A DNA stretch of 57,024 nt from an uncultured Eubacteriales bacterium. Lineage in GTDB: Bacteria > Bacillota > Clostridia > Christensenellales > Aristaeellaceae. Positions 16,704-57,024 of this stretch are shown here, in pieces. The position numbers were made by a program, and so were the translations under genes. The stretch covers positions 1 to 57,024 of the forward strand of contig CADCAS010000033.1 in assembly GCA_902799465.1 (NCBI GenBank), given 5' to 3'. Positions within the stretch are counted from its first letter, which is position 1. Each line of letters starts with the position of its first letter. The notes under the pieces were generated by a model. The model saw nothing but the letters and a program-made list of their open reading frames with translations. It was not told where the DNA came from and ran no database searches.

Positions 16704-16984
16704 GTAACTGTTCAGTCGCCCAGGGATGACTCCCTCAGTCAGCCTGCGGCTGACAGCTCCCTCTACTCCCTCAGTCAGCCTGCGGCTGACAGCTCCCTCT
16801 ACTCCCTCAGTCAGCCTGCGGCTGACAGCTCCCTCGGAGAGGGAGCCTGGACGGGAGCCTGGACGGGAGCCTGGACGAGAGCCTTTTGGAGCCAATAGCA
16901 TCTCTATCCGTACAAAAAAGCCTCCCTCTTTGAGGGAGGTGGCCCGCGAAGCGGGTCGGAAGGAGTCCCCGACTGAACAGTTAC
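16704..16984. mobile_element. MITE-like element, interior type 2, three 36-bp units
   Basis: Terminal inverted repeats GTAACTGTTCAGTC (16704) and GACTGAACAGTTAC (to 16984). The flanks TATTCACA and CATTCATA match at 6 of 8 positions, a decayed target duplication. The interior holds three contiguous 36-bp units starting at 16729, 16765 and 16801, then three 12-bp GGGAGCCTGGAC-like units, then a GAGGGAGGTGGCCCGCGAAGC hairpin region. No open frame codes for a transposase, so mobility would need an enzyme in trans. Confidence 0.85.
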
Positions 16985-17004
16985 CATTCATAAAAAGCGC
17001 GCGC

Positions 17005-17514
17005 TCAGTAATGCGCACGCTTTCTCATCAGCAGTCTCGCCAGCCTTCCCGGCGAGGCGGCCATCGCCTGGGCCTCGCTGAGGGCCTGGGCGTATTTTAC
17101 GGATTTGGGGTTCTGGTGGGCGGCCACGGACAGGTAGATCAGGGCCTTGTCCAGGTCGCTCTGCCGCATCAGCACCCAGCCGAACAGGTAGTTCCACTCG
17201 GCACAGCGGGTGTTGAGGCCCATCAGCTTCTTGCGGGCCACGCTGTAGCGGCCCTCGTCCACCAGCTGCTGCACCTGCTGAAGCCCCTCGGCGTCCCCCT
17301 CCACGCCCTGCCGGGCGTCCGTCAGGCCGTCCAGACACTGGCGGTAGGCCGCGTTGATGTCCGCCATCTTTTCATTGGCCCAGTCCCGCTCCGGGCCCGC
17401 CATGAAGCGGTCCGGATGCCAGCGCCGCGCCAGCACGCGGTATGCCGCGCGAATCTCCTCTCGCGTGGCCGTCCGGGAAATACTCAATATCTCATAGGCG
17501 TTCAAGGTATTCAC
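17005..17514 (-). CDS. DnaJ (J-domain) protein
   Basis: 169 residues. N-terminal J domain with AYEILSISRTATREEIRAAYRVLARRWHPDRF, including the HPD triad that stimulates Hsp70 ATPase. The Gly/Phe and Cys-rich regions of full DnaJ are missing. The rest is helical and TPR-like (VQQLVDEGRYSVARKKLMGLN, WNYLFGWVLMRQSDLDKALIYLSVAA). It is probably a small co-chaperone recruiting DnaK to a specific client. Start is GTG at 17514 with a poor ribosome site. The 3' end lies about 20 bases from a MITE copy. Confidence 0.85.
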   Translation of the reverse strand: MNTLNAYEILSISRTATREEIRAAYRVLARRWHPDRFMAGPERDWANEKMADINAAYRQCLDGLTDARQGVEGDAEGLQQVQQLVDEGRYSVARKKLMGLNTRCAEWNYLFGWVLMRQSDLDKALIYLSVAAHQNPKSVKYAQALSEAQAMAASPGRLARLLMRKRAHY

Positions 17515-17553
17515 CCCGCTCGATCTTACGTAAATATCCCTTGGAATATGCGC

Positions 17554-17583
17554 ATTATAGCAGAACTATAGAAATTATGTCAA
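17554..17583 (-). promoter_or_regulatory. Promoter of the J-domain gene
   Basis: Minus-strand TTGACA (17578-17583) and TATAAT (17554-17559), 18-base spacer. Confidence 0.75.
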
Positions 17584-17606
17584 GATTGCCCGGATTAATA
17601 TGCGGT

Positions 17607-17912
17607 AAATAGGGAGTAGGGGGTAGGGAGTAGGGAGTAGGGAGTAGGGGGAGTTACGGCAAAACTGCTGATTTCTATAGGAAACGGCGCGTTCTACGGG
17701 GGTCGGGGCTGACGCAAGAAGTAAGGTTGTATGGGGAAACCTGCGGGTCCGCAGGGGCATTTGTTCCCGCTTCGATATATATTGTTCGTGCGTTTACCGT
17801 GTTCCGGAGAAAAGGATGCTTGACGCTCTTCATTACAATATAGTATTGTCCTCTGCCGTCCTCCCCTACTCCCTACTGCCTACTCCCTACTGCCTACTCC
17901 CTACTCCCTACA
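17607..17912. repeat. Heptad inverted element (GTAGGGA type)
   Basis: Left arm is repeated GTAGGGA units (17609-17648). Right arm is the complement, CTCCCTACTGCCTA (17861-17912). The 210-base core has no gene and no close match to other cores here. It lies between two divergent genes, just outside their promoters. Confidence 0.75.
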
Positions 17913-17968
17913 TTCTGTCATATTTCAAAAATATTTGTCATATTTTTGAAATTTTTGCCTTTTTCCTG

Positions 17969-17997
17969 TTTACATTTAGACCGATATGCGGTATAAT
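17969..17997 (+). promoter_or_regulatory. Promoter of the Ada-like membrane protein gene
   Basis: TTTACA (17969-17974) and TATAAT (17992-17997) with a 17-base spacer. Confidence 0.8.
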
Positions 17998-18020
17998 AGG
18001 GCTGTGATTGCGAGATACGC

Positions 18021-18803
18021 ATGGGAGAATATACGGGAAGTGATACCATGAGAATGCGTGAATATACGGAAAATCCGGGCGAGAACCGGCAGTCGGCGGC
18101 GCGGCGCGCGGCGGCGAGCGCGCAGTCCGGGCGCGGCGGCAGGACGGGCTACAGCGGCCAGGCCGTGAGGCGGCAGGCCCCGAAGAAGGCCCGCAAGCCC
18201 CTGACCATCCGCTCGGAAAACCTCAAGGCGGCGCTGTGGCTGTGGTTCCCGCCGGTGGGACTTTTGAAGATGTGGCGGTCCGGGTGCACGTGGCGGCGCG
18301 GGGTGAAGATCGGCATCACCGCGGCCATGGCGGCGATCCTGGTGGCCATATTCGTCATCCCCACCCCGGACACCGCGAAATACGAGACCGGCGTGCAGAT
18401 GGTGGCGGGCAAGCCCGAAGTGGAGGTCTACGGCCCCGCTCTCCCGGCGCTGATCGTCCCCGGCTACACCAAGGACAGCACCGGCTCCATCATCGTGGAC
18501 GAGGTGGCCAGCGACGTGCACTACGTCTACGCCGCCGACGGCGCGGAGTGCTACCATGAATACGAGTGCAAGTTCGCCTTCGCCAGCTCCCAGCGGCTGA
18601 CGGTCTACGAGGCCTATCACCTGGGCTTCCGCCCCTGCGGGCGCTGCAATCCCCCCGTCTACGTCCCCGGCCAGACCGACCCCATCACCGCCCAGCCCCT
18701 CGGCTCCACCGCGGTGACCACCGGGGTCAGCGCGGAGACCCCCGAGACCGCGGAGACGGCTCCGGAGACAGTCGCGGAGGAAGCGGCGGCAGAGAACCCG
18801 TAA
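18021..18803 (+). CDS. Single-pass membrane protein with Ada-like Cys cluster
   Basis: 260 residues. A basic Arg/Ala-rich cytoplasmic N-terminus (about 90 residues) precedes one transmembrane helix (VKIGITAAMAAILVAIFVIP). The external part contains CYHEYECKFA..LTVYEAYHLGFRPCGRCNPP, which resembles the zinc-binding fold of Ada N-terminal and nuclease-linked domains (Y-H-x3-C-K ... P-C-x-x-C-x-P). The tail is Thr/Glu/Ala-rich and disordered. An alternative ATG at 18048 has a better-placed GGGAAG; the first ATG lies only 17 bases from the predicted transcript start. The function is unknown; a metal-dependent extracellular role is possible. Confidence 0.7.
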   Translation: MGEYTGSDTMRMREYTENPGENRQSAARRAAASAQSGRGGRTGYSGQAVRRQAPKKARKPLTIRSENLKAALWLWFPPVGLLKMWRSGCTWRRGVKIGITAAMAAILVAIFVIPTPDTAKYETGVQMVAGKPEVEVYGPALPALIVPGYTKDSTGSIIVDEVASDVHYVYAADGAECYHEYECKFAFASSQRLTVYEAYHLGFRPCGRCNPPVYVPGQTDPITAQPLGSTAVTTGVSAETPETAETAPETVAEEAAAENP

Positions 18804-18808
18804 CACAC

Positions 18809-18846
18809 AAACACCGGCACGGACACAGCGTCCGCGCCGGTGTTTT
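18809..18846. terminator. Bidirectional terminator between convergent genes
   Basis: AACACCGGC-ACGGAC pairs with GTCCGC-GCCGGTGTT around ACAGC, then TTTT; A-rich on the other side. Confidence 0.85.
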
Positions 18847-18854
18847 GATGTCCG

Positions 18855-20213
18855 TCAGTTCCGCAGGCTATGCAGCGGCGCGGGGATGCGTCCGCCGCGA
18901 TGGATGAAGGCTGCGGCGGAGTATTCGCGCACGGGGATGACGGGGGCGTGGCCCAGGAGGCCGCCGAACTCCACGTTGTCCCCCACCTTTTTGCCGGGGG
19001 CGGGGATGAGGCGCACGGCGGTGGTCTTGTTGTTGACCATGCCGATGGCGGCCTCGTCGGCGATGATGGCCGCCACGGTCTCGGCGGGGGTGTCGCCCGG
19101 CACGGCGATCATGTCCAGCCCCACGGAGCAGACGCAGGTCATGGCCTCCAGCTTCTCCAGCGACAGCGCGCCCTTCTGGGCGGCCTGGATCATGCCGATG
19201 TCCTCGGAGACGGGGATGAACGCGCCTGACAGCCCGCCCACGTGGGAAGACGCCATGACGCCGCCCTTCTTCACCGCGTCGTTCAGCAGCGCCAGCGCGG
19301 CGGTGGTGCCGTGGGCGCCGCAGATCTCCAGGCCCATCTCCTCCAGGATGGCGGCCACGGAGTCGCCCACCGCGGGGGTGGGGGCCAGGGACAGGTCCAC
19401 GATGCCGAAGGGCACCTCCAGGCGGCGGCTGGCCTCCCGGGCCACCAGCTGGCCCACGCGGGTGATGTGGAAGGCGGTGCGCTTGATGGTCTCGGCCACC
19501 TCGTCGAAGGGCGCGTCCTTCACGCCCTCCAGCGCCACCTTCACCACGCCGGGGCCGGAGACGCCCACGCTCACCGCGCAGTCGCCCTCGCCGGGGCCGT
19601 GGAACGCGCCCGCCATGAAGGGGTTGTCCTCCACGGCGTTGCAGAACACCACCAGCTTGGCGCAGCCCAGCCCGCCGTTGTCGGCGGTGGCCTCGGCGGT
19701 GCGCTTCACCACGTCGCCCATCAGCCGAACGGCGTCCATGTTGATGCCCGCCCGGGTGGAGCCCACGTTCACCGAGGAGCACACCAGATCCGTGGTCGCC
19801 AGCGCCTCGGGGATGGACTCGATGAGCCGCCGGTCCGCCTCGGTCATGGCCTTCTGAACCAGCGCCGAATAGCCGCCGATGAAGTCCACCCCCGTGGCCT
19901 TCGCCGCCCGGTCCATCGCCCGCGCCACCTTGACAGGATCGTGGATCGCGCCCGTCACCAGCGCCGCCGGGGTCACGGAGATGCGCTTGTTCACGATGGG
20001 CACGCCGATCTCCCGCTCGATGTCCCGCCCCACCTGCACCAGGCGCTCCGCGCGGCGGGTGATGAGGTCGTAGATGTTGTCGCAGAGCTTCCTTTCGTCG
20101 TCCGTCACGCAGGAGAACAGCGAGATCCCCATGGTGATGGTGCGCACGTCCAGCTTCTGATGGTCGATCATCTGGAGGGTCTCCAGAATCTCGGAGGTGT
20201 TGATCATGTGCAT
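18855..20213 (-). CDS. DUF711/UPF0210 (PFL-like) family protein
   Basis: 452 residues, full length for the family. It begins [32 protein letters not shown] and carries [41 protein letters not shown] and [16 protein letters not shown]-type blocks. This family is conserved in Firmicutes and archaea, is remotely related to glycyl-radical (PFL) barrels, and its reaction is not established. It is almost always paired with a small ACT-domain gene, as here, where the ACT gene is 12 bases upstream on the same strand. AAGGGGGTGAG precedes the ATG at 20213. Confidence 0.9.
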
Positions 20214-20225
20214 GGACTCACCCCC

Positions 20226-20507
20226 TTAAATCTGGTGCATCGCTTCAAAGATTTCGCTGCGCTGCATGCGGATCTGCACGCCGATGCGCTCCCCCAGCGC
20301 GTCCAGCTCCGTCTTGAGCGTGTCGAACGAGCACGCCTCCGAGGAGATGTCCGCGATCAGGATCATCGAAAACAGCCCCGACACGATGGTCTGGGAGATG
20401 TCCAGGATGTTGGCGTCGTTCTCATACAGGATGCGGCTCACCTGCGCGATGATGCCCTTCTTGTCCGTGCCCAGCACGCTGATGACCGCTTTTTTGTTTT
20501 CGTTCAT
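20226..20507 (-). CDS. ACT-domain protein (UPF0237)
   Basis: 93 residues, one ACT domain: KKAVISVLGTDKKGIIAQVSRILYENDANILDISQTIVSGLFSMILIADI. ACT domains bind small ligands, often amino acids, and regulate partners. It is the first gene of a two-gene operon with the DUF711 protein and likely modulates it. CGGAGGT lies before the ATG. Confidence 0.92.
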   Translation of the reverse strand: MNENKKAVISVLGTDKKGIIAQVSRILYENDANILDISQTIVSGLFSMILIADISSEACSFDTLKTELDALGERIGVQIRMQRSEIFEAMHQI

Positions 20508-20603
20508 GGGGTGTACCTCCGAATGCTGTTTTCAAAGTCCTGACTGTGCGTTATCATCATTTCAAGCCATATTTATGCGTTGCTTGGCTTGCCCAATAAC
20601 ATG

Positions 20604-20632
20604 ATGATAGCAGAATCCCCGCCCCCTGTCAA
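20604..20632 (-). promoter_or_regulatory. Promoter of the ACT/DUF711 operon
   Basis: Minus-strand TTGACA (20627-20632) and TATCAT (20604-20609), 17-base spacer. Confidence 0.8.
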
Positions 20633-20651
20633 CGGCGGGCATGTTTCATAT

Positions 20652-20680
20652 TTGCTTTCTTAACCCTGAACCATTATAAT
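20652..20680 (+). promoter_or_regulatory. Promoter of rimM-trmD
   Basis: TTGCTT (20652-20657) and TATAAT (20675-20680), 17-base spacer. The -35 is imperfect. Confidence 0.65.
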
Positions 20681-20714
20681 AGAAGCCATAAAACAGATTT
20701 GGGGGAATTGGCGC

Positions 20715-21239
20715 ATGCTTTCTGAATATCTGATGATCGGGGAGATCACGAAGCCGCAGGGGGTGCGGGGGGAGGTCAAGATCCGGCCCTGCACCTGCGA
20801 CCCGGACCGCTTCGACGGGCTGGAGACGGTGTATGTGAAGCGGGGCGAGGGCTTCGCGCCCATGAACATCCACGTGAACCGGCTGTCCGGCGACGCGGTG
20901 TTCGCCAGCGTCGAGGGCGTGACGGACCGGGACCAGGCGGAGAAGCTGCGGGGCACGCTCATCTACATCGACCGGGCCCACGCCGTGGCGCTGGACGACG
21001 ACACCACCTTTCTGGCCGACCTGTACGGCCTGCGGGGGCTGACCGACGACGGGCGGGACCTGGGCGAGCTGACCGACGTGATGCAGCCCGGCGGCAACGA
21101 CGTGTACGTGTTCAAGGGACCCCTGGGAGAGGTGCTGGTGCCCGCCCTGAAGAGCGTGGTGCAGGCCGTGGACCTTCAGAGGGGCGAGATGCGGCTGGAC
21201 GGCAGGCGGCTGGATGAGGTCGCCGTGTTCGAGGATTGA
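20715..21239 (+). CDS. rimM: Ribosome maturation factor RimM
   Basis: 174 residues; assists assembly of the 30S head around S19. RimM N-terminal domain (IGEITKPQGVRGEVKIRPCTCDPDRF) and C-terminal PRC-barrel (FLADLYGLRGLTDDGRDLGELTDVMQPGGNDVYVF, LVPALKSVVQAVDLQRGEM). GGGGGAA precedes the ATG. It is followed immediately by trmD, the conserved order. The usual upstream partners (rpsP, KH-domain gene) are absent, and rplS is 29 kb away. Confidence 0.95.
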   Translation: MLSEYLMIGEITKPQGVRGEVKIRPCTCDPDRFDGLETVYVKRGEGFAPMNIHVNRLSGDAVFASVEGVTDRDQAEKLRGTLIYIDRAHAVALDDDTTFLADLYGLRGLTDDGRDLGELTDVMQPGGNDVYVFKGPLGEVLVPALKSVVQAVDLQRGEMRLDGRRLDEVAVFED

Positions 21240-21244
21240 CGCCC

Positions 21245-22354: not shown

Positions 22355-22369
22355 TTCAATAATTTTATA

Positions 22370-22398
22370 TTGACATTTCTCCTCTATCGTGCTATGAT
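22370..22398 (+). promoter_or_regulatory. Promoter of the small secreted protein/tadA unit
   Basis: TTGACA (22370-22375) and TATGAT (22393-22398), 17-base spacer. Confidence 0.82.
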
Positions 22399-22432
22399 TA
22401 TATCGAAGTTCGATAAAAGGAGATCGTTTTAC

Positions 22433-22879
22433 ATGAAAGGACTGTTTTACCTCCTGCTGGGCGTCCTGAGCCTCGCCGTCTTCGGCGGCTCCCCGTCCCC
22501 TGACGCGCACGTCCCGGAGGGATATGACTTTGCGGAATACTGGGACGATCCCTCCCCCTGGATGGATTTCATCGACTACCGCAAATATTACTATCCCGAC
22601 GGCAGCGGCCCGCTGTTCCTGCGGCAGGGGTACGCGCCTGTGACGACCGGGGATTTGCCGAAGCTGAAGGCATACTTCGACGACTACGCCCGCTGGGTGG
22701 ACGATACCCACTGCCACCTGCACGGCATCTACAGCTTCGACACCGCCTGCATCGACGCGGAGGACAGGTATTTCCTCGTGGATGAGCGCCTGGACCCCGC
22801 CCATCCCGTCGAATGCTACCGGCTCTGGTTCTACGACGCCCAGACCGCGACGCTGCACGTTCTGATCAACAAGTGGTGA
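22433..22879 (+). CDS. Small secreted protein of unknown function
   Basis: 148 residues. A hydrophobic signal segment (KGLFYLLLGVLSLAVFGG) is followed by an acidic, Tyr/Trp/Asp-rich domain (YDFAEYWDDPSPWMDFIDYRKYYYPDGSG, YARWVDDTHCHLHGIYSFD). No family was recognised. AAAAGGAG at 22415 decides the ATG at 22433; a longer in-frame reading overlaps the promoter. It is probably co-transcribed with tadA, 50 bases downstream. Confidence 0.7.
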   Translation: MKGLFYLLLGVLSLAVFGGSPSPDAHVPEGYDFAEYWDDPSPWMDFIDYRKYYYPDGSGPLFLRQGYAPVTTGDLPKLKAYFDDYARWVDDTHCHLHGIYSFDTACIDAEDRYFLVDERLDPAHPVECYRLWFYDAQTATLHVLINKW

Positions 22880-25903: not shown

Positions 25904-26455
25904 ATGGAAATCAATGCGATCAGGACCGCGCGGCTGGTCCTCAGGCCCATCGGGCCGGAATACCTGGAGACGACGCTGGCCTACGCCGGGGACCCGGTCA
26001 ACACGCGGCTGATGATGTTCATGCCGCTGATGAGCCGGGAGGAGGTGCTCCAATACCTGGAGAACTTCCAAAAGGAGTGGGCCAAACCCCGCCCCGACGC
26101 CTGCGAATTCGCCATACTGCTGGATGGACAGCACATCGGCGAGGTGGGCGTGGACTACTACGGCGACCCCGATCTGGCCGAGCTGGGCTGGGTGATCCAT
26201 CCCGCCCATCAGGGCCGGGGCTACGTCACCGAGGCCGCCCGGGCGGTGATGGAATTCGCCGTCCAACGCCTGGGCGCGACCCAATTCGTCGCCCATTGCG
26301 ACGCCGAAAACGCCGCCAGCCAGGCCGTCATGCGCAAGCTGGGCATGACCCTCGCGGACGACACCGGCACCCGAAAGAACCGCGGCAGCGACGAGCTGCG
26401 GCGCGAACTGACCTACACAAAGACGGCGGAGGGATTTGAAATGGAGAATGGATAA
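25904..26455 (+). CDS. GNAT-family N-acetyltransferase (RimJ/RimL type)
   Basis: 183 residues. Acetyl-CoA-dependent transferase fold: INAIRTARLVLRPIGPEYLE, GEVGVDYYGDPDLAELGWVIHPAHQGRGYVTEAARAVMEFA (Q/R-G-x-G-x acetyl-CoA motif) and FVAHCDAENAASQAVMRKLGM. The acceptor is unknown; RimJ/L relatives modify ribosomal-protein N-termini or small molecules. ATG 25904 is used because earlier in-frame codons precede the promoter. No Shine-Dalgarno is present. The last residues (EMENG, stop) are encoded by the heptad repeat that begins here. It sits between argG and argH without an evident link to arginine. Confidence 0.85.
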   Translation: MEINAIRTARLVLRPIGPEYLETTLAYAGDPVNTRLMMFMPLMSREEVLQYLENFQKEWAKPRPDACEFAILLDGQHIGEVGVDYYGDPDLAELGWVIHPAHQGRGYVTEAARAVMEFAVQRLGATQFVAHCDAENAASQAVMRKLGMTLADDTGTRKNRGSDELRRELTYTKTAEGFEMENG

Positions 26456-26774
26456 TGGAGAATGGAAAATGATGGTGCAAATCCTTCGGATTTGATAACT
26501 GTTCAGTCGCGGACTCCTTCCGACCCGCTTCGCGGGCCACCTCCCTCAAAGAGGGAGGCTTTTGGGCTCCTGTGCAGGCTCCCTCTCCGAGGGAGCTGTC
26601 AGCCGCAGGCTGACTGAGGGAGTCGTCCCTGGGTGACTGAATAGGTACCGGATTTGTCTGATTAAACGCGATAAGAAGCGTTGTTGCGCTGACTCACGCG
26701 ATATTCATCAAAGAAATCCGCAAGGATTTCCACAGACATTTTCCATTCTCCATTCTCCATTTTCAATTCTCTTC
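26438..26774. repeat. Heptad inverted element interrupted by a MITE
   Basis: Left arm is ATGGAGA/TGGATAA/TGGAAAA units. Right arm is CCATTCT units (26743-26772). The left AAATCCTTCGGATTTG core motif is split by the MITE at 26495-26648. The right motif AAATCCGCAAGGATTT near 26726 is intact. The left arm supplies the end of the GNAT gene; the right arm ends near the argH leader. Confidence 0.8.
26495..26648. mobile_element. MITE-like element, interior type 2 (inverted), one 36-bp unit
   Basis: Ends ATAACTGTTCAGTCG (left) and GACTGAATAGGTAC (right), with exact 8-bp target duplication CGGATTTG at 26487-26494 and 26649-26656. The interior is the reverse complement of the type 2 copies at 16704 and 49933, but with a single CTCCCTCAGTCAGCC unit. 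Confidence 0.88.
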
Positions 26775-31118: not shown

Positions 31119-31467
31119 GTCAATTGGGAATGGGAAATTGGGAATGGGGAATGGATGTGGAAATCCTTCGGATTTCGTAACTGTTCAGTCCTGTGACAAA
31201 CAGAGACTTGGCAGGCTGCGGGGGACGACCTCTCAGTCAGCCTAACGGCTGACAGCTCCCCTGGAAGGGGAGCCAAGGCTGACTGACTGAGAGGTCGTTC
31301 CCCGTTGCCTCGGACAATCTCCACTTATCACAGCAGAACTGAACAGTTACCGGATTTCTTTAATTCAACGGGACAGCCCGTATAAACCCGCGTTCTCTTG
31401 TCAATCAGACAAATCCGCAAGGATTTGGTCCTTCATTCCCCATTCCCCATTTCCCATTCCCCATTTC
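31119..31467. repeat. Heptad inverted element interrupted by a MITE
   Basis: Left arm GGGAATG/GGAAATT units (31119-31152), right arm CCATTCC/CCATTTC units (31433-31467). The left core motif AAATCCTTCGGATTTC is split by the MITE at 31177-31350; AAATCCGCAAGGATTT at about 31409 is intact. It lies inside the second sugar ABC operon, between binding-protein and ATPase genes. Confidence 0.82.
31177..31350. mobile_element. MITE-like element, interior type 1 (intact)
   Basis: 174 bp with termini GTAACTGTTCAGTCCTG and CAGAACTGAACAGTTAC and exact 8-bp target duplication CGGATTTC (31169-31176, 31351-31358). The interior reads GACGACCTCTCAGTC ... GACTGAGAGGTCGTTCC, itself an inverted repeat. The same element occurs in opposite orientation at 49010-49202. 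Confidence 0.92.
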
Positions 31468-31541
31468 TCCGGTCAAACGCCCGAGGATCGCAGTATGAAC
31501 AGCTTCCTTTTTTTACAGCCGAATTTGTGTTTCACCGAAAT

Positions 31542-32650: not shown

Positions 32651-32836
32651 GGAAATATAGGGAAAAGGCAAAAGGGAAAAGGGAAAAGGAGGACGAGGGA
32701 ACAGGGAGCAGGCAACAGGGAACAGGAATAGCGGCTGCCGCGTACCCGGGCCATGCTATTCCGATATCCTGCGCCGCGTACCCGGTTCCTCGTTCCCCCG
32801 TTCCCCTTTTCCCTTTTCCCTATTCCCTGTTCCCTT
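32651..32836. repeat. Heptad inverted element (GGGAAAA type)
   Basis: Left arm GGGAAAA/GGCAAAA/GGGAACA units (32659-32728), right arm CCCTTTT/CCCTATT/CCCTGTT units (32800-32836). The short core has GCCGCGTACCCGG twice. It fills the gap between the operon promoter and the 414-residue protein gene end. Confidence 0.75.
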
Positions 32837-32839
32837 AAC

Positions 32840-37210: not shown

Positions 37211-37459
37211 TTGTGCCGTGCTCCCGGCAGGTTTAACGAGGGGTTAAAGCCCGCGAGGGCGGGGAATGCTATAATACATATATCTGTTCAGTTGTGCCTA
37301 AGACTGGGATTTGTAAAAGAGCGAAACGTTAAACGGCGTGCCGCCATTTAACTCTCCACTTCCTACTCTCAACTTCCCTGCATCCCCCTTATCTGCAAAA
37401 CTGAACGCCAGCAAACAAACGATCCATCCAACCCATCAATATCTCCCACGGAGGTCCCG

Positions 37460-43231: not shown

Positions 43232-43501
43232 ATGATGAAAGACCTCATGAATTATGTTGAAATGGGGGTAAGGGTACGACAGCTGAGACAAAGCCTTAAG
43301 CTTACCCAGGAACAGCTTGCTGAAAAAATCGGTGTCTCGACATCTTTTATCGGTCATATCGAACGTGGCGAAAAGCAGTGTTCGCTGGATACCGCCTGCA
43401 AGCTATCTGTATTCTTGGGAAAAACGCTGGATTATATCGCTTTGGGCATCGTCAACCAGTGTGATCGACAATCGTGTTCTCTATATGCTGATTTGAGGTA
43501 A
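43232..43501 (+). CDS. XRE-family regulator ended by a MITE
   Basis: 89 residues. Canonical HTH: RVRQLRQSLKLTQEQLAEKIGVSTSFIGHIERGEKQCSLDTACKLSVFLGKTLDYI. GGAGG at 43222 supports ATG 43232 (or 43235). The stop codon TAA (43499-43501) is formed by the first bases of the MITE at 43498, so the present C-terminus may be shorter or longer than the ancestral one. AT-richer than flanking genes. It likely regulates itself and/or the divergent XRE gene. Confidence 0.88.
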   Translation: MMKDLMNYVEMGVRVRQLRQSLKLTQEQLAEKIGVSTSFIGHIERGEKQCSLDTACKLSVFLGKTLDYIALGIVNQCDRQSCSLYADLR

Positions 43502-43651
43502 CTATTCAGTCCACCTGAAGAAAATGCAGGATGCCTTCGTAGGGACGCCATTCATAGCGTCCGCAGGCTGCCCTTTCGCGGGGAACGGACGCCATAAATG
43601 GCGTCCCTACGGTGTGTTTCCGTCATATTTCAGACAGGACTGAATAGTTAC
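43498..43651. mobile_element. MITE-like element, interior type 3
   Basis: 154 bp with GTAACTATTCAGTCC and GGACTGAATAGTTAC termini and exact 8-bp target duplication GATTTGAG (43490-43497, 43652-43659). The interior is unrelated to types 1 and 2: CGTAGGGACGCCATTCATAG ... GGCGTCCCTACG, another inverted repeat. Confidence 0.9.
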
Positions 43652-46595: not shown

Positions 46596-46917
46596 AATTG
46601 ATAATGGAGAATGGAAAATGGAGAATGGCGGTGCAAATCCCTTCGGGATTTGTTTTATTTGGGCGCTGTTCCTTTTAGCAGGTCAAATGGAAGTCAGCGG
46701 GGAACGACCTCTCAGTCTGGCCTGCGGCCAGACAGCTCCCCTGAAAGGGGAGCCAAGGAAGGACGGCAATCGGTTTTAATTATCCTAAAATGATTGCAGC
46801 AGCAACGATTCTTATGGAAGGGAACCAAGGAGGACGCGGACCGGCACTTCATTCCTAATTCCTAATTCCCAATTCCCAATTCCCAATTCTCCATTCTCCA
46901 TTCCCCATTCCCCATTA
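46596..46917. repeat. Heptad inverted element with partial type 1 MITE core
   Basis: Left arm ATGGAGA/TGGAAAA units (46602-46627), core AAATCCCTTCGGGATTTG, then a fragment CGGGGAACGACCTCTCAGTC ... GAAAGGGGAGCC (46697-46757) related to MITE interior type 1 but without its termini. Right arm AATTCCC/CATTCTC/CATTCCC units (46850-46915). It occupies most of the PucR to methyltransferase gap; 46918-47113 holds the promoter. Confidence 0.7.
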
Positions 46918-46991
46918 TATCCTCATTTTTGAGGAATGAAAATGGCCCATTTATAAAATGTGTGGAAAATTAACAATTTGTTTGAAAGGAA

Positions 46992-48905: not shown

Positions 48906-49257
48906 AATGGAGAATGGGGAATGGATGTTGTAATCCTTTGGATTTCTTTCTATTGAACAAGCATCCGTTATCACGAGTCTTGCCCCTTTAATCAGACAAA
49001 TCCGCAAGGGTATCTATTCAGTTCTGCTGTGATAAGTGGAGATTGTCCGAGGCAACGGGGAACGACCTCTCAGTCACCGACTTCGTCGGCGACAGCTCCC
49101 CTGAAGCTCCCCTTCCAGGGGAGCTGTCAGCCGTTAGGCTGACTGAGAGGTCGTCCCCCGCAGCCTGCCAAGTCTCTGTTTGTCGCAGAACTGAACAGTT
49201 ACCCGCAAGGATTTGTTCCTTCATTCCCAATTCCCCATTCCCAATTCCCCATTCAAC
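48906..49257. repeat. Heptad inverted element interrupted by a MITE
   Basis: Left arm GGAGAATGGGGAATGG, right arm CCCAATT/CCCCATT units (49227-49256). The right core motif AAATCCGCAAGGATTT is split by the MITE at 49010-49202. The left motif is a variant, AATCCTTTGGATTT. Confidence 0.82.
49010..49202. mobile_element. MITE-like element, interior type 1 (opposite orientation)
   Basis: 193 bp. Termini GTATCTATTCAGTTCTG and CAGAACTGAACAGTTAC with exact 8-bp duplication CCGCAAGG (49002-49009, 49203-49210). The reverse complement aligns along its whole length with 31177-31350, apart from a longer middle hairpin. Confidence 0.92.
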
Positions 49258-49321
49258 GTAACGCTTTCCATTGTCGATCCACCAATGCTGACTTTCAACC
49301 GACAACCACTGGAGGGATACC

Positions 49322-49861: not shown

Positions 49862-50258
49862 GGAGTATTAGGGAGTAGGGAGTAGGCAGTAGGGAGTAGG
49901 GAGGGAACGGCAAGCCATTTCTTTCTTTTGAGGTAACTAATCAGTCGCCCAGAGATGACTCCCTCAGTCAGCCTGCGGCTGCCAGCTCCCTCAACTCCCT
50001 CAGTCAGCCTGCGGCTGACAGCTCCCTCGGAGAGGGAGCCTGGACGGGAGCCGATGGGCGCCTGATCGAGGAGCCCAAAAGCCTCCCTCTTTGAGGGAGG
50101 TGGCCCGCGAAGCGGGTCGGAAGGAGTCCGCGACTGAACAGTTACCTTTTGAAATCGACGTGTCACAGTATCGTCTGCGGATACAGCGGATCGCAAAAGA
50201 AACACCAGGTCTCGCCGCCCCTCCCCTACTCCCTACTGCCTACTCCCTACTCCCTAAT
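49852..50258. repeat. Heptad inverted element (GTAGGGA type) carrying a MITE
   Basis: Left arm GTAGGGA units (49853-49902), right arm CTCCCTACTGCCTA units (50220-50256). The core contains the MITE at 49933-50145. Sequence outside the MITE shows no gene. Confidence 0.8.
49933..50145. mobile_element. MITE-like element, interior type 2, two 36-bp units
   Basis: 213 bp. Termini GTAACTAATCAGTC and GACTGAACAGTTAC; flanks CTTTTGAG and CTTTTGAA match at 7 of 8. Interior as at 16704 but with two rather than three CTCCCTCAGTCAGCCTGCGG units. Confidence 0.88.
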
Positions 50259-50860: not shown

Positions 50861-51769
50861 ATGCCGGACAAGATCAACTGGTATCCGGGACACATGGCGA
50901 AGACGCGGCGGCTGTTGCAGGAGCAGCTGCGGGCGGTGGACGCGGTGATCGAGCTTTGCGACGCCCGCGCGCCTCAGGCCACCCGCAACGGCGACCTGGC
51001 GAAGCTGACCCGGGGCAAGACCCGCATCCTGGTGCTGAACAAGGCCGACCTGGCCGACGACAACGCCACCGCCCGGTGGGTGGAGCGCTTTCGCCGGGAG
51101 GGCTTGACGGCCCTGCGGTTCAACGCCAACGGCGGCAAGACCAGGGACATCCTCAACCGCATCCAGGAGGCGTCCCAGCCCGCGCTGGACCGCTTCGCCG
51201 CCCGCGGGGTAAAGAAGACCGTGCGCATCATGGTCACCGGCATCCCCAACGTGGGCAAGTCCACCTTCATCAACCGGCTGCACGGCTCCGCCATCGCCAA
51301 GGCGTCGGACCGGCCCGGCGTGACCCGGTCCAACCAGTGGGTGAAGCTGAACCCCTACCTGGAGCTGCTGGACACCCCCGGCATGCTGCCGCCGCGCATG
51401 GACGACCAGGAATCCGCCCGGCTGCTGGCCTACCTGGGCTCCATACGGGACGAGATCATGGACACCGAGGACCTGGCGGGCGGGCTGCTGGAGCTGCTGT
51501 ACCGGCTGAACCCCGCCGCCGTCGCCAAACGCTTCAAGCTGCCCGACGGCGTCGAGCCCCTCCCCCACGCCCTGCTGGAGGCCGCCTGCCGGGGCCGGGG
51601 CTGGCTCCTCTCCGGCGGACGCCCCGACACCGACCGCGCCGCCGCGCTGGTACTGGACGAGTTCCGCGGGGGCAAGATCGGGAAGATCACCATCGAGCGG
51701 ATCAGGGAACAGGGAGAAGGGAAAAGGGAAAAGGGGAACGGGGAACCGGGGATCAGGGAAGAGGAATAG
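50861..51769 (+). CDS. rbgA: Ribosome biogenesis GTPase RbgA (YlqF) with repeat-derived tail
   Basis: 302 residues; late 50S assembly factor. Circularly permuted GTPase: INWYPGHMAKTRRLL, G4 LVLNKADL, then G1 GIPNVGKSTFINRL and G3 LLDTPGMLPPR. The domain ends at about GGKIGKITIERI. The remaining roughly 20 residues (REQGEGKREKGNGEPGIREEE) are encoded by GGGAAAA-type heptads (51703-51768) and look like an accidental extension. Start ATG 50861 gives the family N-terminus; the only ribosome-site-like sequence upstream is AAAAGGCAGG. Confidence 0.95.
   Translation: MPDKINWYPGHMAKTRRLLQEQLRAVDAVIELCDARAPQATRNGDLAKLTRGKTRILVLNKADLADDNATARWVERFRREGLTALRFNANGGKTRDILNRIQEASQPALDRFAARGVKKTVRIMVTGIPNVGKSTFINRLHGSAIAKASDRPGVTRSNQWVKLNPYLELLDTPGMLPPRMDDQESARLLAYLGSIRDEIMDTEDLAGGLLELLYRLNPAAVAKRFKLPDGVEPLPHALLEAACRGRGWLLSGGRPDTDRAAALVLDEFRGGKIGKITIERIREQGEGKREKGNGEPGIREEE
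51703..51768. repeat. Heptad array overlapping the rbgA 3' end
   Basis: GGGAACA/GGGAGAA/GGGAAAA/GGGGAAC units run through the last 20 codons of rbgA. No complementary right arm is seen, so it is a half element. Confidence 0.7.
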
Positions 51770-51832
51770 TCCTCCTTCGCCGAGTTTCAACGGTATTGTC
51801 ACGCTTTGGCCCCAATTCGCCGCGGTTCGCGG

Positions 51833-51861
51833 TTGAACTCCGTGGAGAATGAAGGTATAAT
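51833..51861 (+). promoter_or_regulatory. Promoter of the LCP gene
   Basis: TTGAAC (51833-51838) and TATAAT (51856-51861), 17-base spacer. The predicted transcript start coincides with an in-frame ATG at 51869. Confidence 0.78.
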
Positions 51862-51901
51862 AATATAGATGACATATACACTGCACGGAGGTTTATACAA
51901 A

Positions 51902-53302
51902 TTGGCTTCTCGCTATTCCTCAGACAGATATTATGACGATGAAAGGGACATGGACCGGGTGCAGCCGGGGATCTCGCGGGATCGAAGCTCGGGCTACAGC
52001 CGCCGGACATCGTCCCCTGAAAACCGCGCCGCGCGGTATGACGAGCGCCCCGCCGCCCGCCGCGCCGCCGCGCCCCATCCGACGCGCAGAAGCGCCGGAT
52101 CCCAGCGCCCGCCCCAGCGGCGTCCCTCGAACAACAACCGCCGCAGGCCGCCCAAGCGGCGCAGCAATGCCTGGGCCTACGCCATCATCGCCGCGCTGGC
52201 GGTGGTACTGGTGGCGGTGATCCTGCTGGTTGCCCGCCCCGGCGAGGAGGTCTACCGGCCCGTGAGCCAGGACGCCACCCCCGTGGTGACGGTGACCGTG
52301 GCCCCGGAGGAGACCGCCGCCGCCAGCGGCTTCGACACCCAGAACACCGCCACGCAGACGCCCACCCAGTACGCCACCATCTCCCAGATGCTGGGCGACA
52401 CCGGCAACCAGGTGGAGGGCCTGGCCGCGGACCAGATGGTGCAGGTGGAGGACCTGTCCATCAAGGAGGGCCTTTCCGACGAGTGGCTCAACGTGCTGCT
52501 GCTGGGCACCGACGAGCGCGTGCTCTCCGAGAGCGCCCGCACCGACGCCATGATGATCTGCTCCATCAACCTCCAGACCGGCCAGGTGAAGCTGACCTCC
52601 ATCATGCGCGACCTTGCGGTGGAGTTCAAGGACATCGGCAAATACTCCGGCACCTACCGCATCAACGCCGCCAACTACTTCGGCGGCTCCAAGCTGGCCA
52701 TGAAGACCGTCAACGAGCTGTTCGACATGAACATACAGTACTACGTGATGGTCAACTTCTTCGGCTTCGGCAAGATTGCCCAGACCCTGGGCGGCGTGGA
52801 GGTGGACATCTCCGAGGCCGAGATGAAGAAGATCAACGAGGACATCGTCAAGCAGTACAAGATGGCCTACTTGGCGGGCGTCACCGACTTCGACCCGGAG
52901 CAGAAGTATCTGGAGGAGTACGGCCAGAACGTCCACCTCAACGGCAACCAGACGCTGGCCTACGCCCGCATCCGTCACCTGGACGGCGGCGACTACACCC
53001 GCACCACCCGCCAGCAGACGGTGCTGAAGAAGCTGCTGGGCAAGGTCAAGAAGCTTGGCATGATGGAGATGCTCCAGCTGGGCACCGACCTGTTCTCCAT
53101 GATCAAGACCAACATGGAGTGGGAGGACATCTTCAAGATCGCCTCCATCGTGGTCTCCAGCGGCATCTCCGACGTGGACACCCTCCGCCTGCCCGAGGCC
53201 AAGACCTATAAGGAAGAGGTCCGCAACGACGAGGGCATGCTCTACGACTGCGACTTCGCCACCAACGCCGTGCGGCTCTACGATTTCATCTACGAGCAGT
53301 AA
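51902..53302 (+). CDS. LytR-CpsA-Psr (LCP) family wall-polymer transferase
   Basis: 466 residues. A basic, disordered cytoplasmic N-terminus of about 90 residues (Arg/Pro/Ser) leads to one transmembrane helix (WAYAIIAALAVVLVAVILLVA) and an external LCP domain: WLNVLLLGTDERVLSESARTDAMMICSINLQTGQVKLTSIMRDLAVEF, FGKIAQTLGGVEVDIS, GNQTLAYARIRHLDGGDYTRTTRQQTVL. The Arg and Asp residues match the pyrophosphate-lipid site. It attaches teichoic acid-like polymers or capsule to peptidoglycan. TTG 51902 preceded by GGAGG is preferred; ATG 51869 would be leaderless. Confidence 0.93.
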   Translation: MASRYSSDRYYDDERDMDRVQPGISRDRSSGYSRRTSSPENRAARYDERPAARRAAAPHPTRRSAGSQRPPQRRPSNNNRRRPPKRRSNAWAYAIIAALAVVLVAVILLVARPGEEVYRPVSQDATPVVTVTVAPEETAAASGFDTQNTATQTPTQYATISQMLGDTGNQVEGLAADQMVQVEDLSIKEGLSDEWLNVLLLGTDERVLSESARTDAMMICSINLQTGQVKLTSIMRDLAVEFKDIGKYSGTYRINAANYFGGSKLAMKTVNELFDMNIQYYVMVNFFGFGKIAQTLGGVEVDISEAEMKKINEDIVKQYKMAYLAGVTDFDPEQKYLEEYGQNVHLNGNQTLAYARIRHLDGGDYTRTTRQQTVLKKLLGKVKKLGMMEMLQLGTDLFSMIKTNMEWEDIFKIASIVVSSGISDVDTLRLPEAKTYKEEVRNDEGMLYDCDFATNAVRLYDFIYEQ

Positions 53303-53312
53303 GCGGGATATC

Positions 53313-53352
53313 GACCGGCGGATGCCCGATGCGGGCGTCCGCCGGTCTTTGT
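53313..53352 (+). terminator. Terminator of the LCP gene
   Basis: GACCGGCGGA pairs with TCCGCCGGTC around a loop that is itself GC-rich, then TTTGTT. Confidence 0.83.
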
Positions 53353-53355
53353 TCA

Positions 53356-53520
53356 GGGAAAAGGGAAACAGGGAGCAGGGAACAGGCGACAGGCAACAGG
53401 CAACAGGCAACAGGAATAGCCTGGGCACGTCGGGGCTGCAATGCGCCGCCCCTGCGGTGTACGCGGCAGCCGTTATCCCTTTTCCCTTTTCCCTGTTGCC
53501 TTTTCCCTTCTCCCTTTTCC
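53356..53520. repeat. Heptad inverted element (GGGAACA/GGCAACA type)
   Basis: Left arm of about nine 7-base units (GGGAAAA, GGGAGCA, GGCAACA; 53356-53413), right arm CCCTTTT/CCCTGTT units (53479-53520). Core GGGGCTGCAATGCGCCGCCCCTGC shares features with cores at 12995 and 39665. Confidence 0.76.
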
Positions 53521-53645
53521 TGAATCCCCATAGCGTCATAACGACGGTTCATCCCCAAAAATGTATCTTTCGTCGGCATCCCCTTTTCTTTTTCGGGGAA
53601 AGATGGTATACTGGGTGCATCCCAAAGAGAACGAGGTGATCGAGC

Positions 53646-54149
53646 ATGGGAGGTTTACTGGGCCTGCTGGGGGCGAACGTTCCGGCGCTGATCCTGCTGC
53701 TGGTGGGCGTGGGGCTTCTGGTCTTTGAGATGTACATTCCGGGCTTCGGCGTGCCGGGGACCCTGGGCATCGGTTCGCTGGTGATGGGGTTCGTGGTGCT
53801 GAAGCCGTCGATGGAGCAGGGACTTCTGCTGTTCGTGGTGCTGGCGGCGGTGCTGTGCGTGGCGCTGTCCGTCTGTCTGGTCACCGCGTCCAGGGGAAGG
53901 CTGGAGAAATCCAGGCTGGCCCTCAAGGACGTGGCCCTCGACCCGAACGCCGCCGCGAGCAACGATCTCAACTACTTCATCGGCAAGACCGGCGTCACCC
54001 GCACCGCCCTGCGCCCCGTGGGCATGGCCGAGTTCGACGGCGTGAAGCTCAACGTGGTCTCCGACGGCGAATTCATCGGCCAGGGCGTCCCCATACGGGT
54101 GCAGAAGGTCGCGGGAAATCGCATCGTCGTCGCGGAGATCGAAGCGTGA
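53646..54149 (+). CDS. NfeD-like membrane protein
   Basis: 167 residues. Three transmembrane helices (LILLLVGVGLLVFEMYIPGFGVPGTLGIGSLVMGFVV; LLLFVVLAAVLCVALSVCLV) and a C-terminal OB-like NfeD domain (GKTGVTRTALRPVGMAEFDGVKLNVVSDGEFIGQGVPIRVQKVAGNRIVVAEI). Short NfeD form lacking the protease part. It is directly upstream of floA, the conserved partner; the two act together in flotillin-type membrane domains. The ribosome site is weak and the next start is 128 bases away. Confidence 0.92.
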   Translation: MGGLLGLLGANVPALILLLVGVGLLVFEMYIPGFGVPGTLGIGSLVMGFVVLKPSMEQGLLLFVVLAAVLCVALSVCLVTASRGRLEKSRLALKDVALDPNAAASNDLNYFIGKTGVTRTALRPVGMAEFDGVKLNVVSDGEFIGQGVPIRVQKVAGNRIVVAEIEA

Positions 54150-54276
54150 CGCGCCTGTCCAGTTCCGACCTGACGGGCGGAAGGTAGAGATTTATCTGTA
54201 CCGCCGCGCTCAGCTGTCAACGCCGGTCTGCCGCAAGGCTTGCCGATACCAGAATGACTAACAGGAGGGCAACACA

Positions 54277-55269
54277 ATGAATACCATGATTCTGTCCGCC
54301 ATCGTCCCCGTGATCATCGTGGTGCTGGTGATCACACTGTTCTCGCTGTTCCCGCTGGGGCTGTGGTTCTCGGCGCTGATGAGCGGCGTGCACATCAACA
54401 TCTTCAACCTCGTCGGCATGAAGTTCCGCCGGGTCAGCCCCCGCCGCATCGTGCCGCCGATGATCAAGGCCCGCAAGGCCGGCATCAACGTATCCATGAA
54501 CGAGCTGGAGACGCTGTACATGGCCGGCGGCAACGTGGACCGCGTGGTGGACGCGCTGATTGCCGCCCAGTCCGCGCAGATCGAGCTGGACTTCAACCAG
54601 TCCAAGGCCATCGACCTGGCGGGACGCAACGTGCTGGAGGCCGTGAAGATGTCCGTCAATCCCAAGGTCATCGAGACCCCCGTGGTCGCCGCCATCGCCA
54701 AGGACGGCATCGAGCTGCGGGCCAAGGCCCGGGTCACCGTGCGCGCCAACATCTCCCGCCTGGTCGGCGGCGCCGGTGAGGAAACCATCATCGCCCGCGT
54801 CGGCGAGGGCATCGTCACCACCGTCGGCTCCTCCGAAAGCCACAAGGCCGTGCTGGAAAACCCCGACCTCATCAGCCGCACCGTGCTGAACAAGGGTCTG
54901 GACGCCGGGACCGCGTTTGAGATCCTGTCCATCGACATCGCCGACGTGGACGTGGGCCGCAACGTGGGCGCGCAGCTGCAGATGGACCAGGCCGAGGCCG
55001 ACCGCCGCATCGCGCAGGCCAAGGCCGAGGAGCGCCGCGCCATGGCCGTCGCCCATGAGCAGGAGATGAAGGCCAGCGTTCAGGAGATGCGCGCCAAGGT
55101 CGTGGAGGCCGAGGCCGAGGTGCCGCGGGCCATGGCCGCCGCCCTGCGCGAGGGCAAGCTGGGCGTGATGGACTACTACAACATGCAGAACGTCCAGTCC
55201 GACACCCGCATGCGCGAGGCCATCGCCGGTGAGAGCGTGCCGAGCCACACCGAGAAGGACAAGAAGTAA
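54277..55269 (+). CDS. floA: Flotillin-like protein FloA
   Basis: 330 residues. N-terminal membrane segment ([34 protein letters not shown]), then the PHB/SPFH domain ([101 protein letters not shown]). The coiled C-terminal Ala/Glu-rich helix supports oligomers. Full-length YqfA/FloA. It organises membrane microdomains with NfeD. AGGAGG precedes the ATG. Confidence 0.96.
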
Positions 55270-55332
55270 CAATATCGGGACGCCGTTCGCGGCGTCCCAT
55301 GGTGATATTACAGTGAGAAGGAGGTCAGCGGT

Positions 55333-55833
55333 ATGGAATCTCTGATCGTCGTACTCATTATACTGTTCATCGTCCTCACCAACGAAAAGAGCAAGCAGAA
55401 GAAGCGCGGCGCGGCCCCCGCGAAGCCGCAGCGGCCCGCCCGCGGCAGGGAGAGCTTCAGGCAGCGGCTGGAGAAGCTGAAGGCCGAGGCCGAAAAGCAG
55501 CTCCAGGCCGCCGGGGAGGCCCTGCCCGACGGGGCCCTGTCCGACGCGGCGCCCGTGCTCCAGCCCGAGATCGCCCAGGGCGTCAGCCTGCATGACGACG
55601 AGGGCTGCGTGGGCGGCTCCATGGAGCACGTCCACACCGAGGGCGAGACCCACGCCGAGCACCGCCGCCACGTCGAGGCCCTGCGGCGCCGGGAGACCGA
55701 GGAGAGCCTCGCCGCCCAGGCCGCCGCAGACCTCGCCGCCCTGAACATCCAAAAGCTCCGGCAGGCCGTCATCATGAAGGAGCTCCTCGACCGGCCCGTG
55801 GCGCTGAGGGGAAGGAGAAGCATTAGGCAGTAG
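55333..55833 (+). CDS. Small membrane protein downstream of floA
   Basis: 166 residues. N-terminal transmembrane helix (SLIVVLIILFIVLT) then a long basic/acidic helical domain (RESFRQRLEKLKAEAEKQLQAAGEALPDG; HTEGETHAEHRRHVEALRRRETEESLAAQ), probably coiled coil. No known family was recognised. GAAGGAGG precedes the ATG. It lies 63 bases after floA and is probably in its operon. The last codons (ATT AGG CAG, stop TAG) are made by the GTAGGCA heptad array, so the native C-terminus was altered by the repeat. Confidence 0.75.
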   Translation: MESLIVVLIILFIVLTNEKSKQKKRGAAPAKPQRPARGRESFRQRLEKLKAEAEKQLQAAGEALPDGALSDAAPVLQPEIAQGVSLHDDEGCVGGSMEHVHTEGETHAEHRRHVEALRRRETEESLAAQAAADLAALNIQKLRQAVIMKELLDRPVALRGRRSIRQ

Positions 55834-55951
55834 GCAGTAGGCATTGGGCATTTTGAAAAGGCCTTTCAGAGACGCCCACGATCTGTATAGTGCGCACAGT
55901 CTCCGCCGCCCCTCCCCTACTCCCTACTGCCTACTCCCTACTCCCTAAAAC
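55824..55951. repeat. Heptad inverted element (GTAGGCA/CTCCCTA type)
   Basis: Left arm GTAGGCA units (55824-55848), right arm CTCCCTACTGCCTA units (55913-55949). It is short, about 70 bases between the arms, and ends 13 bases from the LytTR gene. Confidence 0.75.
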
Positions 55952-55963
55952 ACGGAGGTTTTC

Positions 55964-56707
55964 ATGAAGCCCATTGACATTGTGATCGCGGACGACGATC
56001 CGGGGATGCTTTTGGTGATGCGCAAGCTGGTGGAGAAGGCCGGGGGGTATCAGCTGGCGGGCGAGGCGTCGGACGGGGAGGCGCTGCTCAGGCTTTACGA
56101 CGAGGCGCGGCCCGAGGTGGTGCTGATGGACGTGGAGATGCCCGGGAGGACCGGCATCGAGTGCGCCCGCGCCATACAGGACCGCGACCCGCGGACGGTG
56201 CTGGTGTTCGCCACCGCCCACGAGGAGTACATGAAGAGCGCCTTCGAGGTCTACGCCTTCGACTATCTGGTGAAGCCCTTCCGGGTGGAGCGCGCGCTGG
56301 AGACACTGTCCCGCATCCGCGACCGGCTGCGCAGCGAGCCCGAGCGCGCCGCCCTCACCCCGCCCGCCGCGTCGGTGCCGGGGCGGATCATGCTCAAGCA
56401 CCGGGACGGCGTCAGCTTCCTCGACCTGGAGGACATCGCCATGGTCATGCGCGAGAACCGCGCCACCGTGGTGCTGATGCGCGACGGCACACGCTACACC
56501 GTCTCCGACGGCATGGCCGAGCTGGACGAGCGCCTGCCCGACCACATGTTCTTCCGCACCCACAAGAGCTACATCGTCAACCTCAACCTGATCGAGTCCA
56601 TCGCGCCCTACGGACGCTGGACCTACGTCGTGAAGCTGAAGGGCCTTAAGGACGACGCCCTCATCACCCACGAGCGCTTCGAGGCGCTGCAGGGCATGTT
56701 CGGATAA
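55964..56707 (+). CDS. LytTR-family response regulator
   Basis: 247 residues. Receiver domain with acidic pocket DDD (residues 10-12), phosphoacceptor Asp56 (VVLMDVEMP), and conserved Lys104 (FDYLVKPF). DNA-binding LytTR domain from about 140 (IMLKHRDGVSFLDLEDIAMVMRENRATVVLMRDG; FFRTHKSYIVNLNLIESIAPYGRWTYVVKLKG). No sensor kinase gene is adjacent within the window. ACGGAGG precedes the ATG. The sequence 56708-56929 to its right contains no clear gene. Confidence 0.95.
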   Translation: MKPIDIVIADDDPGMLLVMRKLVEKAGGYQLAGEASDGEALLRLYDEARPEVVLMDVEMPGRTGIECARAIQDRDPRTVLVFATAHEEYMKSAFEVYAFDYLVKPFRVERALETLSRIRDRLRSEPERAALTPPAASVPGRIMLKHRDGVSFLDLEDIAMVMRENRATVVLMRDGTRYTVSDGMAELDERLPDHMFFRTHKSYIVNLNLIESIAPYGRWTYVVKLKGLKDDALITHERFEALQGMFG

Positions 56708-56929
56708 AAACATGCCGCGCGCAGCTGACCTTCGCACATGCCATACAGAAATCGTTCACCCGTGAACACCTCCGCTTGCTTTCAGAGGGATCGCCGGTCA
56801 CTCTCTGATTGCATCGCGGAGGTTTGTTTTATGCTTCTTCGCGGATGGTTGAGGGATTTTCAAGGCAGAAGCGCCGCACCGGCGCAGGAAAATCAACCAT
56901 GCTCCATGGAGCAATACGAATCAAAAATC

Positions 56930-57024
56930 GTAACTGTTCAGTCCTGTGACAAACAGAGATTTGGCAGGCTGCGGGGGACGACCTCTCAGTCAGCCTAACG
57001 GCTGACAGCTCCCCTGGAAGGGGA
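56930..57024. mobile_element. MITE-like element, interior type 1, cut by the window end
   Basis: GTAACTGTTCAGTCCTGTG starts at 56930, and the following 90 bases match the intact copy at 31177-31270 almost base for base. The right terminus and target duplication lie beyond the window. Confidence 0.87.

Follow-up and report, generated by a model that had tools for sequence, protein, structure and literature searches.

Gene-less elements with IS66-type ends, their hairpin cargo and their insertion hot spot in the genome of an uncultured clostridial bacterium

Introduction

Short sequences bounded by one 14-bp terminus in inverted orientation recur along contig CADCAS010000033.1 of an uncultured Eubacteriales bacterium of the family Aristaeellaceae (assembly GCA_902799465.1). 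What are these sequences, what moves them, and where do they land? We analysed positions 1 to 57,024 of the contig, a stretch of 57,024 nucleotides that we call the window, together with the genome to which it belongs (G000, the home genome) and the genomes of its genus and family. Genomes, contigs and loci are cited by our own G, C and L numbers. A first-pass annotation of the window, made from the letters, had proposed passive elements moved by a single transposase encoded elsewhere.

The present analysis supports that proposal and points to the type of driver. The home genome carries about 100 short, gene-less mobile elements with IS66-type ends. They are very probably a family of non-autonomous miniature inverted-repeat transposable elements (MITEs) that owe their movement to an IS66-family transposase acting in trans and belonging to the ISBst12 type, which has a single open reading frame (ORF). 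Four lines of evidence carry this reading: the 14-bp inverted ends, a target duplication of strictly 8 bp, the empty site in a sister species, and insertion sequences (ISs) of the IS66 family in relatives that have the same ends and the same duplications.

Results

The home genome is a draft of 2,885,815 bases in 115 contigs. Allowing one mismatch, the pattern TAACTGTTCAGTC was found 235 times in it, against 2 for the reversed control pattern, and the termini are of the kind GTAACTGTTCAGTC. In the window, 14 terminus matches were found at up to 3 mismatches, where 1.8 were expected, and 14 was reached in none of 100 shuffles. A terminus-like match at 37280, with 3 mismatches and no partner listed, was treated as chance.

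The sample consisted of the window and 90 loci around terminus matches from the 100 listed, all of them exact, and is biased to elements with one perfect end. Pairs were formed from a terminus that had no more than one mismatch and a partner that had up to four, at a span of 70-450 bp; when several partners qualified, the one giving the best duplication was taken, a choice that could have raised the duplication score. The result was 88 elements and 14 termini without a partner, with L070 counted twice among the 88 with alternative partners. The 8-bp flanks were exact repeats in 62 of the 88, 7/8 in 14, 6/8 in 5 and lower in 7 (76 at 7/8 or better); for the low-scoring L018 its outer terminus gives 8/8. 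The 79 elements with a single candidate partner agree with the whole set (56 exact, 69 at 7/8 or better). Exact repeats of 7 bp were seen in one element and of 4-6 or 9-11 bp in none. Control flanks shifted by 1, 2, 3, 8, 10, 15 or 20 bp scored 6/8 or better in at most one of 88 and were never exact. Since other repeat lengths and shifted flanks are both near zero, the 8-bp duplication is real and its length is fixed. The first-pass annotation had named two outcomes as fatal to its proposal, flanks without an excess of duplication and termini occurring mostly singly; this genome-wide sample gave the opposite of both.

The inverted arrangement of the termini is documented by the 88 pairs and by positional conservation. 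The sampled elements are 115-342 bp long, and a tblastn search of the window and sampled loci for the IS66 transposase gave no match (best E 0.17); they are thus short and without transposase coding. Clustering of the 88 interiors by k-mers gave four groups (72, 8, 7 and 1), and the interiors called types A and B in the window (Table 1) fall in one group. A partner over more than 90% of the length was found for 80 of the 88. The best identities run from 98.4% down to 80%, a spread that suggests activity over a long period.

Among the 14 unpaired termini, five lie at a contig end (L053, L061, L080, L117, L129) and L120 lies close to one. L059 is an IS-end remnant, an L018 terminus is cut by the edge of the fetched locus, and another belongs to the copy at the window edge, which was later completed. 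The remaining five (L010, L014, L022, L045, L124) look by eye like copies whose far end has been lost or has decayed. At least five contigs of the draft end inside such elements, which explains some of the assembly breaks.

Evidence of past movement came from sister genomes. Contig C22 of G020 has an empty site for the 43498 copy: the joined flanks of that copy align to it without a break at the junction (75% identity), and GATTTGA is present there once. In G010 an element clearly related to the 43498 type occupies another site, with a different exact 8-mer. Among 18 sister-genome loci there were five pairs with exact duplications and other interiors (two in G012 and one each in G002, G008 and G010); one further G012 pair is cut by a contig end, and five loci in G006 and G012 have no pair. 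Of 8 further loci, one in G198 has an exact duplication and four have no pair at 6/8 or better. A separate arrangement was noticed in G003 (L182, 294-324) and G009 (L183, 558-588), where two termini stand back to back as a 31-bp inverted repeat with a 3-bp centre and no duplication; the same spacing occurs in G102 at C287 and C301.

The targets were studied in the 76 elements with a duplication of at least 7/8. The 8-mer CGGATTTC, on either strand, was the target in 15 of them and CGGATTTG in 5. These sites lie in a hairpin of the form AAATCC-n-GGATTT, often beside TTTGATT; the hairpins form inverted pairs around a variable core and are flanked by 7-bp tandem arrays. Twenty-one of the 76 insertions are inside the hairpin, 20 of them at one identical 8-bp position, and 41 are within 60 bp of it; by eye, all 20 are in the arm nearer the core. 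Beyond 300 bp the background density of the motif was 9 in 90.8 kb of mostly coding DNA. The intergenic background may be eightfold higher by our estimate; the excess would remain, and the single position would still be unexplained by it. Genome-wide, an 8-mer of this kind abutting a terminus (up to 2 mismatches) was found at 47 places in the home genome, 39 of them with exact CGGATTT[CG], and at 8 places in G024, 5 of them exact. Of four G024 places examined, three have exact duplications and different cargo, and the fourth has no recognisable partner. The target focus is clear in these two species.

Such a concentration of one 8-mer in similar repeats could also be produced if a single MITE-in-repeat composite had been copied many times, in which case the hot spot would be illusory. 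We consider this unlikely, as the position is used by types A and B and by both smaller interior groups (the single type C copy lies elsewhere), in both orientations, with C or G as the last base of the 8-mer, and G024 uses the same position with other cargo and exact duplications. Insertion flanks average 48% G+C against 62% for the window, so selection against insertion in genes probably contributes to the distribution.

The target repeats were also seen as structures in their own right. Inverted heptad arrays around paired AAATCC-GGATTT hairpins occur at five places in the window (Table 1). The heptad sequence varies between species, while the hairpin and the TTTGATT flank are kept.

The first-pass annotation had called for a complete IS with the same termini and a transposase. 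Such elements were found in relatives, in other genera of the family; the home genome yielded fragments. The IS66 element of G044 is 1589 bp long, that of G073 is 1591 bp, and that of G067 is 1349 bp with broken reading frames; each has both termini and an exact 8/8 duplication (CTTCTGTT, ACGGAAAG and ATGCTTTT, respectively). In G044 a single ORF of 492 amino acids (1315-2793) fills the element (1307-2895) with about 100 bp left over, which is the ISBst12-type organisation of one ORF without tnpA and tnpB. G073 has an ORF of 394 amino acids in one frame; as tblastn also covers the N-terminal part outside it, the frame is probably broken. The full-length proteins of G044 and G065 match PF03050 (IS66) at 4e-41 and 7e-40 and exceed the cut-off of NCBIfam NF033517. 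The protein piece from G001 (P0001), a partial protein, matches NF033517 at 1e-38, below the cut-off. Four proteins in all exceed the PF03050 cut-off.

IS66-family ends begin with GTAA. Most of the listed IS ends are GTAACTATTCAGTC / GTAACTGTTCAGTC, and a few start with GTAG, GCAA or CTAA. Within the genus, PF03050 matches occur in 10 of 28 genomes, 9 over the cut-off. Of the 13 loci concerned, only two in G001 and one in G026 have the terminus, and there the transposase gene ends in or beside it, at one end. The two G001 copies (L084 and L085) have in common, by eye, a frame break shortly after the NNTAE motif, a break that G026 lacks; one lesion in two copies suggests that a defective IS was moved by another, intact copy.

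Exact termini were found in 63 of 308 family genomes and 11 of 50 genera (reversed control 3 of 308), and relatives of P0001 in 14 of 308 at E <= 1e-20, a strict threshold that leaves distant IS66 relatives uncounted. At this cut-off the termini are therefore seen more widely than the transposase. Ten of 12 loci with transposase relatives are in Clostridia/Clostridiales metagenome-assembled genomes, several from goat or roe deer gut; Comamonadaceae and Rhodoferax account for the other two, which are distant matches. No relative was confirmed in viral contigs, and phage records gave one match at 22.7% identity.

In the home genome, the PF03050 search gave no match. Two IS remnants were found. 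One is a 99-bp stretch at a contig end that matches the G001 gene at 100% identity, the other the end of an IS, 29 bp long and 93% identical; E was 0.3 or more for the 34 further DNA matches of the G001 IS. The fragment on C72 may be a chimeric contig end, since no terminus was seen where it meets the adjoining gene, which by eye is radical-SAM-like.

With no intact IS66 gene in the home genome, the driver might instead be a transposase of another family that leaves 8-bp duplications, its ends resembling IS66 by convergence. A terminus pair of 1737 bp in G152 (flanks 7/8) would fit, enclosing a transposase-like ORF that is not IS66 and looks by eye IS481-like (rve type). However, this pair shares its subterminal sequence with a 207-bp MITE of the same genome, and the additional 1.5 kb is best explained by insertion into a MITE; we therefore rejected it as a second driver. 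Together with the three two-ended IS66 elements with exact duplications, and several single-ended ones, this leaves a driver from another family very improbable.

The interiors were at first thought to be of three unrelated kinds. This does not hold for the copies at 16704, 26495 and 49933 (type A) against those at 31177, 49010 and 56930 (type B), which have a hairpin module, CTCAGTC...CAGCTCCC, in common. Among the window copies, only the one at 43498 (type C) is without it. The module is present in 69 of the 88 elements and occurs 414 times in the home genome against 0 for the reversed control. It is also found apart from the termini. In the window it lies outside complete elements at 4544 (in the decayed copy), 11215, 11297 and 46711. 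Of nine genus genomes with zero terminus matches, eight have it: G004 with 45 copies, G025 with 29, G021 with 21, G016 with 19, G011 with 18, and G013, G015 and G017 with only 2-3 each; G023 has none. Since the module is present without termini both in the window and in genus genomes, it is a repeat in its own right, carried by the elements. Two G012 elements with exact duplications (L172 and L173) carry, by eye, heptad-repeat structures instead. Heptad arrays of another type, (AGGGAAC)n, are present in the window (Table 1), and a structure resembling them is the cargo of these two elements.

That the elements are mainly functional hairpins under selection (terminators or RNA stabilisers, REP-like, that is, like repetitive extragenic palindromic sequences), with incidental termini, would suit the strong predicted folds of three copies (with no shuffled control alongside) and a module widespread in the genus independently of the termini, but it can hardly be right: the strict 8-bp duplications, the empty site and the varied cargo between the same ends need transposition, and a host role of the cargo, while possible, leaves the ends unexplained.

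The features of the window are listed in Table 1. On re-examination, the six complete copies of the first-pass annotation stood at their positions with inverted termini and with the flank scores it had given, and its decayed copy at 4488 was borne out by 63% identity to the 31177 copy over 97 nt (4487..4583); by eye, no far terminus was seen in the sequence of that copy. The copy at 56930, described as cut, is cut by the window edge only. In the contig it is whole: it measures 199 bp, counting a short stretch of N, and is flanked by an exact 8/8 duplication, CAAAAATC. The annotation had also found no transposase in the window, which holds for IS66, the only family tested. The helix-turn-helix (HTH)-like gene that starts at 43232 ends prematurely at the TAA supplied by the GTAA terminus of the 43498 copy. 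A search of the window with Rfam at the gathering threshold found only a T-box and tRNA, none on the elements, and a plasmid search with the type B copy at 31177 gave no match.

Table 1. Elements, target repeats and other features of the window
Feature	Position	Length	Structure or setting	Target duplication or flank score
MITE copy, interior type A	16704..16984	281 bp	3 tandem hairpin modules	6/8
MITE copy, type A	26495..26648	154 bp	at hot spot in heptad-flanked hairpin repeat	CGGATTTG, 8/8
MITE copy, type B	31177..31350	174 bp	at hot spot	CGGATTTC, 8/8
MITE copy, type C	43498..43651	154 bp	in 3' end of HTH-like gene	GATTTGAG, 8/8
MITE copy, type B	49010..49202	193 bp	same hairpin kind, different position	CCGCAAGG, 8/8
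MITE copy, type A	49933..50145	213 bp		7/8
Type B copy, left part, cut by window edge	56930..57024		whole copy 199 bp in contig	
Decayed type B copy	4487..4583		degenerate left terminus, one hairpin module	
Target repeat interrupted by 26495 copy	26440..26494		heptad array and AAATCC-GGATTT hairpin	
Target repeat interrupted by 31177 copy	31122..31176			
Stand-alone hairpin-module pair	11210..11331		module of types A and B; IS66-type termini not recognisable	
Inverted heptad arrays around paired AAATCC-GGATTT hairpins	15160-15320, 26440-26772, 31122-31469, 46596-46925, 48906-49269		variable core of about 40 bp	
Second heptad-array type, (AGGGAAC)n	32654-32835, 51699-51770, 53365-53534, 13056-13144		near GGAATAGCGGCTGCCGCG-like sequence	
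Large ORF, minus strand	4736-9583		overlaps five to six tandem repeats, spacing 276-279 bp	
T-box leader, minus strand	12633-12848		Rfam match	

Discussion

Several observations weigh against a MITE family driven by an IS66 transposase. Movement itself was unobserved, and mobilisation in trans is inferred from the shared ends and the duplication length. An intact IS66 transposase was not found in the home genome with PF03050, with P0001 at E <= 1e-20, with the DNA of the G001 IS or with tblastn on the sampled loci. Twelve of the 88 sampled pairs score under 7/8. Among the 18 sister-genome loci, three G002 pairs and one G001 pair reach only 3-5/8 and the pairs of G003, G005 and G009 only 0-3/8; among the 8 further loci, three G152 pairs stand at 6-7/8. 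Two-ended ISs at L132 and L098/L134 have no duplication. The hot spot is weak outside the home genome and G024: each of the other 26 genus genomes has 0 or 1 match, the terminus-rich G012, G020 and G006 among them. Finally, beyond the 14-bp end the MITEs agree with the sampled ISs at 12 of 20 positions at best, and the maximum for shuffled sequences was 12.0 on average and 15 at most.

An origin of the MITEs by internal deletion of a sampled IS is accordingly unsupported, similarity beyond the end being no higher than in shuffled sequences. The true parent IS may be unsampled. Descent by internal deletion is not demanded by all definitions of a MITE.

The MITE family and its IS66-type driver can be joined in a simple mechanism. 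The transposase would need little beyond the outer 14 bp, so that whatever DNA is caught between two ends could move. Landing in intergenic DNA that is rich in hairpins may be how the elements acquired the hairpin modules. The transposase itself would recognise the hot spot as a target, with a contribution from selection, under which insertions into repeats are tolerated. The driver of the home genome would be fragmentary or absent from the draft. Going further, and only tentatively, the IS66-type 14-bp ends may be a general vehicle that has repeatedly captured unrelated extragenic hairpin repeats, including whole heptad-flanked ones, and that the transposase delivers to a landing pad in another hairpin repeat. 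If true, this would be a two-tier repeat economy, in which one type of transposase spreads the hairpins of a whole genus.

The elements link a single transposase family to a layer of repeats abundant in uncultured gut clostridia, and provide a natural insertion sample with clean duplications. In them, a sharp target preference of an IS66-type transposase, and ends seemingly indifferent to their cargo, can be put to the test. No IS66 MITE was among the matches listed in the literature searched, which covered titles and abstract openings, with ISfinder outside its scope.

The putative driver is like the ISBst12 group of IS66 (ISBst12, ISDge4) in its single ORF, IS66 transposase, GTAACT-TCAG-type ends and 8-bp duplication. 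According to the passages available, ISDge4 of Deinococcus geothermalis, with one transposase gene and the ends GTGACTACTCAGCA/GTAACTGCTCAGCA, has an 8-bp repeat and is reported to transpose (PMC12898284). Those passages state no target focus, whereas the present elements are focused; unlike this group, they are also gene-less, 115-342 bp long and hairpin-carrying. Paracoccus IS66 elements likewise have 8-bp repeats, in the text seen of PMC3281130. As a MITE the family resembles MITEPsy3 of Pseudomonas syringae pv. actinidiae, described in the excerpt of PMC6053426 as 102 bp long, with 78 copies, and thought to be moved by ISPsy25. Both are short, of high copy number, with inverted ends, moved in trans (here by inference) and polymorphic between strains; MITEPsy3 is one sequence with a different driver, whereas here several interiors stand behind one type of end. 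As a target, the hot spot recalls the REP sequences or palindromic units targeted by IS1397, IS621, ISKpn1 and ISRm22 in the portion of PMC1525189 consulted, which does not mention IS66. The miniature elements too insert at a fixed position of an extragenic palindromic repeat (20 of 76, and three G024 elements chosen for that position); the REP-targeting ISs are autonomous, whereas here MITEs insert. The elements thus belong to a known kind, a MITE family of IS66/ISBst12 type, and what is unusual in them is the hairpin repeats that they carry and the sharpness of their landing site.

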